Part shown: positions 2,886-26,986 of the stretch, in pieces
Position numbering within the stretch: the stretch's first letter is position 1
Layout of the letters: the number at the start of each line of letters is the position of its first letter
Source of the DNA: a virus
IMG/VR virus record: IMGVR_UViG_3300042451_000092
Coordinates: 1-28,286 of that record
Length of the DNA stretch: 28,286 nucleotides
Strand: one strand, 5' to 3'
Notes under the pieces: model-generated
Told to the model about the DNA's origin: nothing
Seen by the model: only the letters and a program-made list of their open reading frames with translations
Databases searched by the model: none
Made by a program: the position numbers and the translations under genes

Positions 2886-3590
2886 ATGGCATTAGTTTAC
2901 ATACATATGAAGCCAAGCACACGTGATATTTATTATGTAGGGATTGGCAATTCAAAAGAACGCGCTCATAGAAATGAGGGTAGAAATTCTCATTGGACAC
3001 GCGTTTTCAAAAAGTATGGTAAAATAGTCGATATAATTGCTGATGATATTTCTTTGGATGGGGCTAAAGAAATGGAAAAATTTTTGATTTCTTCAATAGG
3101 TATAGAAAACTTATGTAACCAAACATTAGGTGGCGAAGGGGCTTTTGGTTTAAAACATACTGAAGAAACTAAAAGAAGAATATCAGAAGCAAATAAGGGA
3201 AAAGTTTTTTCGCCAGAAACACTAGCTAAAATATCAGCAAAATCAAAAGGACACCCTAACTATAATTTAAGTCATACAGATGAAGCAAAAGCCAAAATTT
3301 CAGCAGCTTTTAAGGGTAAAAAAAGAAGTGAGTATTTTTGCAGTCAAGTTAAAAAATCTAAACATGGATATAGGCCTCACCCTTCTGCTTGGGAAGGTGC
3401 TACTAAATTAAGAAAAGAAAAAGCCGCTTTAATTATTGAAGTAAACAGTGGTTTCATCGGTAAGATTTGGGAAATAGAAAAACAATTCAATATTGATAGA
3501 AGAGCAGTTTATTATAATTGCAAGAGAGAAAAGGAAATATTAACAAGAGAATGGAAAGGATTAAACTTTAAAAAATACACAACCCTTTAA
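2886..3590 (+). CDS. GIY-YIG homing endonuclease with NUMOD3 motifs
   Basis: 234 aa, very lysine-rich and AT-rich compared with its neighbours. The N-terminus fits a GIY-YIG nuclease core: V4-Y5-I6 stands for GIY and Y17-V18-G19 for YIG, with R26 (ERAHR) as the likely catalytic arginine and E62 or E64 (KEMEKFLI) as the likely metal-binding glutamate. Three NUMOD3-like DNA-binding repeats follow (about 88-106 GLKHTEETKRRISEANKGK, 108-123, 128-145 LSHTDEAKAKISAAFKGK). A helix-turn-helix-like tail (about 192-214, KIWEIEKQFNIDRRAVYY) closes the protein. This is the layout of free-standing phage homing endonucleases of the Seg/I-TevI type, which cut cognate DNA and spread by repair. It sits between fibre genes, one base after the previous stop, with no intron visible around it. 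Confidence 0.85.
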   Translation: MALVYIHMKPSTRDIYYVGIGNSKERAHRNEGRNSHWTRVFKKYGKIVDIIADDISLDGAKEMEKFLISSIGIENLCNQTLGGEGAFGLKHTEETKRRISEANKGKVFSPETLAKISAKSKGHPNYNLSHTDEAKAKISAAFKGKKRSEYFCSQVKKSKHGYRPHPSAWEGATKLRKEKAALIIEVNSGFIGKIWEIEKQFNIDRRAVYYNCKREKEILTREWKGLNFKKYTTL

Positions 3591-16704: not shown

Positions 16705-16712
16705 TATCTTTG
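16705..16712 (+). promoter_or_regulatory. Bacteroidota-type -7 element (TATCTTTG)
   Basis: TATCTTTG matches TAnnTTTG and lies exactly 23 nt before the ATG at 16728. The following leader TAAAAATTAAATC is shared almost base for base with the element at 22727. No -33 TTTG at 19-21 bp. It falls in the 30-nt gap after the phosphoesterase gene and would start the 16728-onward operon. Confidence 0.65.
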
Positions 16713-17788: not shown

Positions 17789-18069
17789 GTAGAGAGAAAG
17801 ACTTAAGACGTAATATTATTGAGGCAGGATACAGAGCCGTTGAGCAACTCATCAAGGTTGCTAAAGAGGATATCATTAAACCTGATCCTGAGGATGACTT
17901 ATCAGTGGACAAATTAAAGAACGCTGCTGCGTCAAAACGATTAGCTATATTTGATGCATTCGAAATTCTAAATAAAATCGAAGCCGAGAAGGCTATATTG
18001 GAGGAGGTAAAAGATGAATCACCAAAGCTTGACATTAAACAGGGATTCGCAGAGCGAAGAGCTAAATAG
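17785..18069 (+). CDS. Candidate small terminase subunit
   Basis: 94 aa, largely helical and charged (REKDLRRNIIEAGYRAVEQL, DKLKNAAASKRLAIFDAFEIL, KIEAEKAILEEV). It overlaps the GroES-like gene by ATGA at its start and the large terminase gene by 56 nt at its end. Size, helical content and position directly before the large subunit match a small terminase, the DNA-recognition part of the packaging motor, but no clear helix-turn-helix could be named. It could instead be another small packaging-linked protein. Confidence 0.5.
   Translation: MSREKDLRRNIIEAGYRAVEQLIKVAKEDIIKPDPEDDLSVDKLKNAAASKRLAIFDAFEILNKIEAEKAILEEVKDESPKLDIKQGFAERRAK
18003..18007 (+). promoter_or_regulatory. Shine-Dalgarno-like site deciding the terminase start
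   Basis: GGAGG ends 6 nt before the ATG at 18014, inside the upstream coding region. Most other genes here have A-rich leaders without such a site. It supports the choice of 18014 as the terminase start despite the 56-nt overlap, although the bases also encode Glu-Glu in the upstream frame. Confidence 0.45.
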
Positions 18070-25371: not shown

Positions 25372-26130
25372 ATGTCAAAAAAAGTCACGTTGGCTGCTGC
25401 CGACAGAGTCTATCGACTCAAAAATGAAAAGGCACCATTGTCTTATATGCTATCAGCAAGAAACACAAAACGCTCAGCACTCCTTTGGTACGATGAGGAA
25501 ACCAATCAAAACAGACCTCTCCGTTACGCAGTAAACCAAAAGAGCCCATTTGAGGATGAGCAAGATGGCAACCCACTTATCCAACCTATTATCTTTGAGA
25601 ATGGCTTCTTAAGCGTTCCTAGAAACAATCCTGTGCTACAGGAGTTCTTATATTACCATCCACAAAATGGTATCGTATTTGAAGAAGTAAACAAAGAGCG
25701 TGATGCACAAGAAGAGGTTGAATTCTTGGTAACTGAGGTTGATGCATTAATCAGAGCTCGTGAGTTAAGTATTGATCAACTTGAGACAGTATATCGAGTA
25801 TTATTCAACAAAGATGTAAGCCGTGTTACCACAGCAGAAATGAAGCGCGATGTGCTTATCTATGCACGTAACTATCCGGGTAGCTTCTTGAATTCTCTTG
25901 AAGATCCAATGCTACACCTACAATCACAGGTTCATATATTCTTTGACATGGGGTTACTTGGTTTCCGAAGTGGAAACAAAGAGGTTTGGTATAGCACACC
26001 AAGTAATAAGAAAAAAATGATGAATATACCTTACGGTGAAGACCCATATGTGCTAGTCGCTATGTATCTTAAAACCGATGAAGGTGTTGAAGCATTGAAA
26101 ATGTTAGAGCACCATTTGGAGAATGCATAA
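25372..26130 (+). CDS. Capsid-adjacent structural protein, unknown role
   Basis: 252 aa, between the capsid terminator and the neck genes. Opens with a basic segment (MSKKVTLAAADRVYRLKNEK), then a beta-rich part including FLYYHPQNGIVFEEVNKERD (about 92-111), then helical regions (EEVEFLVTEVDALIRARELS, 114-133). The F(L)...HPQNG..FEE pattern resembles proteins I recall next to capsid genes in marine phages, without a defined function. Its leader contains TTGTAAACTTTAATTAT, similar to the leader at 11640 but without a good TAnnTTTG element. Candidate for a minor capsid, cargo or head-completion protein. The end of the gene contains the -33 part of the next promoter. Confidence 0.6.
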   Translation: MSKKVTLAAADRVYRLKNEKAPLSYMLSARNTKRSALLWYDEETNQNRPLRYAVNQKSPFEDEQDGNPLIQPIIFENGFLSVPRNNPVLQEFLYYHPQNGIVFEEVNKERDAQEEVEFLVTEVDALIRARELSIDQLETVYRVLFNKDVSRVTTAEMKRDVLIYARNYPGSFLNSLEDPMLHLQSQVHIFFDMGLLGFRSGNKEVWYSTPSNKKKMMNIPYGEDPYVLVAMYLKTDEGVEALKMLEHHLENA

Positions 26131-26145
26131 ATAATGTTATATTTG
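26115..26145 (+). promoter_or_regulatory. Full Bacteroidota-type promoter (TTTG-N19-TATATTTG)
   Basis: TTTG at 26115-26118 and TATATTTG at 26138-26145 are separated by 19 bp, the expected -33/-7 arrangement for Bacteroidota sigma-ABfr-type promoters. It is the only two-part match I found. Predicted start near 26152. The -33 box lies inside the end of the upstream gene. Confidence 0.75.
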
Positions 26146-26151
26146 TAACGT

Positions 26152-26215
26152 TGTTTTAGAGTTCTACTCATTTGTTTGTTTGATAAAGGTGTCCTAGTGG
26201 CACCTTTATTTTTTT
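26152..26215 (+). ncRNA. Candidate small RNA or short attenuated leader (about 60 nt)
   Basis: Between a two-part promoter (26115-26145) and a strong terminator (26183-26209) there is no ATG and no coding frame of useful length. The expected transcript would begin near 26152 with about 30 unpaired U-rich bases (ACTCATTTGTTTGTTTG) and end in the terminator hairpin, like many bacterial small RNAs. It might instead be just the start of a read-through transcript into the neck genes, controlled at the terminator. No homology is claimed. Confidence 0.4.
26183..26215 (+). terminator. Intrinsic terminator before the neck genes
   Basis: ATAAAGGTG (26183-26191) pairs perfectly with CACCTTTAT (26201-26209) around a 9-nt loop TCCTAGTGG, followed by a run of six further T (to 26215). 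A new -7 element begins two bases after the T-run. Confidence 0.9.
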
Positions 26216-26216
26216 G

Positions 26217-26224
26217 TATCTTTG
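26217..26224 (+). promoter_or_regulatory. Bacteroidota-type -7 element (TATCTTTG) after the terminator
   Basis: TATCTTTG directly follows the terminator T-run and lies exactly 23 nt before the ATG at 26240, the same spacing as at 16705 and 22727. No -33 TTTG at the standard distance; the terminator hairpin occupies that place. Confidence 0.65.
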
Positions 26225-26239
26225 TGAAAAGATATTTCA

Positions 26240-26986
26240 ATGATTAACTCAGTAAGAAACACCGTATTGTCAGTTCTTAACAAGAACAACTACGGATATA
26301 TCTCACCATCTGACTTTAATTTGTTTGCAAAACAGGCACAGATGGAGATATACGAAGAATACTACAGCAGCTATAATAAGACCATAAATGCAGAGAATGC
26401 AAGGCTATCAGGCACTGAGTATGCTGATATCGAGAATCCTATTGCAGAGGTCTTAGAGGGCTTCTTGCGTAATGATACGCTCACACAGGTTACGCCTGCA
26501 ACAAACCAATACTATGTACCATCGCTAACGACTACAGGTTATAACTTCTATATGATTAGTAGACTTACTTGTTTTAATGGTACCACAAGATTAGGTGATG
26601 CTGAGAAGGTTGCTAACGCACGTTTGTATATGTTATTGGACTCAATGCTTACGGCACCAACTACAAAGTATCCATCTTATATTATCGAGGGTGATACTAT
26701 CAGTGTATATCCTGATACCATCAATGGTGTATCATCATTGAAGTGCTCATACTTTAGGTTGCCTTTAGACCCTAAGTGGACATACATTACATTGTCAAAT
26801 GGTGAGCCTGCATTCGATCAATCACAACCTGACTATCAAGACTTTGAGCTTCCGGGTGAAGATGAGTACAAAGTAGTAATGAAGATTCTTCAGTACTGCG
26901 GTATGTCAATTAGAGAGATTCAAGTTGCTCAATACGCAATTCAACAAGAACAGAGTGAAAACCCTGCATTTAGCCAACAACAATAA
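26240..26986 (+). CDS. Neck/ring (head-tail connector) protein candidate
   Basis: 248 aa. Begins MINSVRNTVLSVLNKNNYGYISPSDFNLFAKQ, a helical N-terminus of the kind seen in structural ring proteins of Bacteroidota podoviruses. A beta-rich middle follows (YPSYIIEGDTISVYPDTING, SLKCSYFRLPLDPKW) and a helical, Gln-rich end (REIQVAQYAIQQEQSENPAF). The Y...P....G..I.VYP pattern is common to head-completion or connector proteins in this position. It is transcribed from its own -7 element and followed 6 nt later by another neck gene. The exact ring layer cannot be decided. Confidence 0.6.
   Translation: MINSVRNTVLSVLNKNNYGYISPSDFNLFAKQAQMEIYEEYYSSYNKTINAENARLSGTEYADIENPIAEVLEGFLRNDTLTQVTPATNQYYVPSLTTTGYNFYMISRLTCFNGTTRLGDAEKVANARLYMLLDSMLTAPTTKYPSYIIEGDTISVYPDTINGVSSLKCSYFRLPLDPKWTYITLSNGEPAFDQSQPDYQDFELPGEDEYKVVMKILQYCGMSIREIQVAQYAIQQEQSENPAFSQQQ

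Follow-up and report, generated by a model that had tools for sequence, protein, structure and literature searches.

In an uncultured flavobacterial virus, does the short gap that separates two virion genes encode a small RNA, or does it hold a leader that controls entry into the downstream neck genes? The window analysed here is the whole contig of 28,286 nucleotides, in which genes for terminase (at 18014), portal (20272), a gene in the scaffold position (22750) and the gene for the major capsid protein (23853) follow one another. Gene A (25372 to 26130, + strand; 252 amino acids, unknown function, phrog_34748) lies between the major capsid gene and the neck genes. Gene B (26240 to 26986, + strand; 248 amino acids, phrog_14543), with a predicted 11-nucleotide leader, encodes a virion structural (neck) protein and is followed by more structural genes. 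A NUMOD3 homing endonuclease gene (2886 to 3590) adjoins tail genes. The nearest annotated phage is the uncultured podovirus MW202828, and remoter annotated kin include Maribacter phage Panino, Flavobacterium elemoviruses, and Cellulophaga phages Calle_1 and phi38:1 (Pervagoviridae). We took the gap between genes A and B from relatives found through gene A, the capsid protein and short patterns, which gave a family survey of 125 distinct gaps, each of at most 250 nucleotides. Judging from protein identities to the window, which are 80% (gene A) and 70% (gene B) in contig L194 and 61% (A) and 95% (B) in L207, this gap looks like a recombination joint.

All elements of the gap lie on the + strand. 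TTTG at 26115 to 26118 is followed after 19 nucleotides by TATATTTG (26138 to 26145), the predicted -7 box of an upstream promoter. An intrinsic terminator (26183 to 26215) starts 37 nucleotides after TATATTTG, with a perfect 9-bp stem formed by the arms ATAAAGGTG (26183 to 26191) and CACCTTTAT (26201 to 26209) and a run of 7 T (26209 to 26215). After G26216 comes TATCTTTG (26217 to 26224), the predicted -7 box of the neck gene promoter. Both boxes have the TAnnTTTG form of flavobacterial sigma-A promoters and both are conserved. The earlier note placed these elements correctly, and its statement that no ATG lies between the upstream box and the hairpin is borne out. It also called the upstream promoter complete; the elements are present, but the -33-like TTTG lies within gene A's last codons (His-Leu-Glu) and is weakly conserved: of 34 relatives, 23 have it exactly, two have CTTG and nine lack it. 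Boxes mapped in F. psychrophilum span -12 to -5 (PMC9723704), and this geometry predicts a start at G26150 and an RNA of about 66 nucleotides, instead of the start near 26152 and the length of about 60 nucleotides proposed before.

A bare promoter-like pattern is weak evidence in this AT-rich window, whose + strand contains 23 copies of TAnnTTTG and whose - strand contains 15. By itself the pattern is not significant, and it is conservation that has to carry the case. A scan for E. coli-type promoters was uninformative (48 found, 49 expected). Further -7 boxes, mostly of the form TANNTTTGTAAAAA, lie right ahead of genes at 16705, 22727, 11618 and 14269, and none of these four has a clean TTTG at -33. 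The downstream box TATCTTTG likewise lacks a correctly spaced TTTG, because its -33 region falls in the terminator hairpin.

Conservation was assessed in 34 contigs of the window's clade, for whose selection only the downstream box and the start codon were used, not the upstream box. TAYATTTG is present in all 34, at 63 to 81 nucleotides before the T-run, and the base 12 nucleotides after the box start, which is the predicted first base of the transcript, is G in every one. Thirty of the contigs begin GTTGTTTTAG[AG]GTT at the predicted +1 (G26150). This 5' block is not essential in all carriers, as it is absent in the other four (L193 to L196), whose predicted RNAs start with GTTCTAATACTC- or GTTCTAATA-type sequence. 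In genes A and B, fourfold-degenerate sites are mostly 45 to 70% identical between the window and relatives with the element, two near-identical members excepted. Since hardly any change is seen in the upstream box or in the 14 bases transcribed first, while the flanking fourfold sites have diverged, a degree of conservation beyond the neutral expectation, the box and 5' block must, to judge from this comparison, be under strong purifying selection. Part of the conservation of the box could be structural, as a 6-bp hairpin may form around the box and leave it in the loop (94% of cells paired). In a relative of 66,935 bp with a 99-nucleotide end repeat (G001), whose gene A product is identical to that of the window, the element's box is the only intergenic box of the late region that does not lie 11 to 39 nucleotides before an ATG, and the genome holds no second copy of the element. 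Two other contigs, L227 and L245, end within or right beside the element, perhaps through assembly breaks.

The predicted small noncoding RNA extends from 26150, set by the -12 to -5 geometry, to 26215, at the end of the T-run. Its conserved 5' end, GTTGTTTTAGAGTT (26150 to 26163), runs into a small hairpin, GAGT-TCT-ACTC (26159 to 26169), whose loop varies in sequence and length. This hairpin is pairable in every case, although its changes are one-sided only, with no two-sided covariation. The stretch is not coding, because its loop and linker vary in length among relatives; indels of one or two bases in the loop, together with early stops, speak against coding on either strand. A search of Rfam matched no family. 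A resemblance to boxA-like antitermination signals was considered by eye and dropped, since those bases vary. At the level of sequence, then, a putative promoter and a terminator bound a short noncoding stretch, as in a small RNA gene. A search for duplexes with the starts of 90 phage ORFs gave nothing above shuffled sequences (44/100).

The upstream promoter and the body of about 40 nucleotides behind it occur only in the window's clade, in part of a second clade and in one further lineage; most of the wider family is without the upstream element. In the second clade, 8 of 14 contigs keep TATATTTG and the body. In the remaining six, the site of the box reads TACATTTC, TACATTGC or TATATTGC and the body is about 40 nucleotides shorter, with the terminator and downstream box unchanged. 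On a quick tree of gene A, which has many open forks, these losers are nested inside carriers (93% support), and the element changes at least 4 times versus 20.8 for shuffled labels. L113, of the second clade, keeps the GTTGTTTTAGAGTT body, and in the L207 and L208 types the body has diverged and has a hairpin of its own. The third, distant lineage (L049, L222 and L233) has TATATTTGCAATCGTTGTTTG followed by a different hairpin and a terminator. Outside the window's clade, the strict TAYATTTG is found in 5 of 94 pre-terminator segments versus 0.4 expected, three of the five being close kin. The earlier note had named loss of the box from a retained hairpin as evidence against its proposal. Such loss does occur in relatives, but the RNA body disappears along with the box, a pattern that speaks for the small RNA and not against it.

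A covariance-model search for further copies yielded none that was convincing. In an unrelated flavophage-like contig (L219, 9570 to 9643, - strand; also L247), TATATTTGTAACGTTGTTTTTCATAG and then a terminator come right after a stop codon. A second RNA gene of this kind may be present there; the covariance-model E value for L219 is 0.008, from a contig that was picked by a pattern overlapping the model. The same pattern also retrieved L236 and L242, which we did not retain; the match in L236 adjoins the start of an opposite-strand gene and reads there as that gene's leader.

In contrast to the upstream element, the terminator and the box behind it belong to the whole family. The terminator hairpin is not a product of chance: it folds more stably than its shuffles (z -5.1; 0 of 200 shuffles), as does the entire gap (z -5.4), all cells are paired, and four pairs show two-sided, compensatory change in relatives. 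With its G+C-rich stem and T-run it has the features of an intrinsic terminator. Our script called a terminator in 124 of the 125 distinct gaps, and inspection of the one exception, L152, showed a script miss. TAnnTTTG stands behind the terminator in 122 of the 125 (by script), beginning 1 to 3 nucleotides past the T-run in 122 of 123 gaps and usually 21 to 25 nucleotides before the start codon. The L003 gap has lost its TATCTTTG through a 7-nucleotide deletion, which may be a natural variant or an assembly error. Cultured phages phi38:1, Calle_1 and elemoA have the same layout. In loci from 78 relatives, 69 of 93 coding-strand terminators are followed by a TAnnTTTG box, versus 19 of 219 T-runs that lack a hairpin, many of the 69 being the same junction of genes A and B. 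By these counts, a terminator that all but touches the promoter behind it is an ordinary family trait, and this fusion would be a simple layout for separating transcription of capsid genes from that of neck genes. The earlier note thought that the contact looked designed; it is real, but since it is found across the family whether or not the upstream promoter is present, it does not speak for a cassette.

We consider it probable, although well short of certain, that the 3' UTR of gene A harbours a gene for a small noncoding RNA at positions 26138 to 26215. Its box, TATATTTG, would be recognized by the host's sigma-A RNA polymerase, which would start near G26150, and transcription would end at the terminator, which the gene A mRNA presumably also uses, to give the RNA of about 66 nucleotides. 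This RNA is predicted to have a conserved single-stranded 5' end, GUUGUUUU, then a weak hairpin, a U/G-rich linker and the terminator hairpin. The product would function as RNA, with the conserved 5' end as its most likely point of contact with an RNA or protein of the host or the phage. Transcription of the neck genes would begin anew at a promoter of their own, which is fused to the terminator's end. The conserved box and first 14 transcribed bases, and their joint loss, favour the proposal of an independently made RNA. A bolder extension, which we hold to be distinctly doubtful, is that the elements belong to one family of RNAs in which the 5' end (GUUGUUU) is fixed and the hairpins evolve freely. 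Such a family would occupy this junction in three or more lineages, might extend to L219 and L247, and would target a host factor, for example a defence system or translation.

The strongest rival, although a fairly unlikely one, is control in cis. Because the T-run and the downstream -7 box are 1 to 3 nucleotides apart in nearly every gap, a terminating polymerase would cover the downstream promoter. Upstream transcription that ends atop this promoter might then lower neck gene transcription by occlusion or raise it by polymerase reuse, with the RNA as a by-product. In vitro, polymerase remains on the DNA past termination and can restart (PMC6978322; PMC6978380), which lends this idea some plausibility. 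However, it does not account for the constancy of the 14 leading bases of the transcript when linker and loop vary, and transcription of gene A into the same terminator would act alike in all relatives.

The conserved box could also be something other than a promoter. Together with its flanks it might be a DNA operator, the inverted repeat AATGTT-ATATTTGT-AACGTT, or a hairpin in the 3' UTR of the gene A mRNA, and the fold of the whole gap does place the box in a hairpin loop, with one compensatory pair. We find this improbable, because the stem is broken in L183 and weak in L194 to L196 and L207 and yet the box is kept throughout. Moreover, the change of the box that does occur, TATA to TACA, falls in the free nn of TAnnTTTG.

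The other function suggested in the earlier note, an attenuator or regulated leader governing entry into the neck genes, is very improbable. A promoter and then a terminator do precede these genes, as such a leader would have it. However, none of eight variants folded gave an antiterminator, the hairpin is a plain terminator with no competing, mutually exclusive fold, and Rfam gave no family. The neck genes also have their own downstream promoter in essentially every relative, with or without the upstream one.

RNA anti-CRISPR activity, in which a solitary repeat-like RNA mimics the repeat of a host CRISPR array, is scarcely credible here. Solitary repeat units often lie right behind a promoter (PMC10651486), and GTTTTAGAGTT is identical to the first bases of the type II-A-like repeats of two Clostridia arrays. 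However, this match is of 11 bases only and in the wrong phylum; a two-copy search returned Clostridia arrays only, with no match to a CRISPR repeat in Bacteroidota, a longer exact pattern had no match in a genome collection of 84,980 species, and hairpin and loop drift freely. Finally, a chance promoter-like match in AT-rich DNA before an ordinary terminator is conceivable given the 23 such patterns on the + strand, but it is extremely unlikely for a box kept in 34 of 34 contigs at near-saturated synonymous divergence and lost jointly with its body.

To our knowledge, only a few small RNAs have been described in phages that infect Bacteroidota. As a conserved and precisely bounded candidate with a natural series of losses, this element offers a direct test case for the function of such RNAs. 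Type I 3' UTR-derived bacterial small RNAs have their own promoter. The candidate resembles them in that its promoter lies at the end of a coding gene (here with the -33-like part in the last codons), in the terminator common to it and the mRNA and in its short, structured product; it differs in its setting, a phage of Bacteroidota hosts, and has no known target or evidence of an RNA chaperone. Like the Racr RNA anti-CRISPRs (PMC10651486), it would be a small RNA of a phage with its own promoter immediately in front, although it has only the 11-base resemblance to Clostridia repeats and no matching host repeat. With phage-encoded small RNAs in general (PMC12197685) it shares the character of a short noncoding RNA in a phage genome, whereas those reviewed have reported functions and this one is predicted and has no Rfam match. 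In Pseudomonas phage LUZ100, an antisense noncoding RNA near the capsid gene was seen by sequencing (PMC10134795). Although that RNA is antisense and sequenced and the present candidate is sense and predicted, both are noncoding transcripts placed just downstream of a capsid gene, among structural genes.
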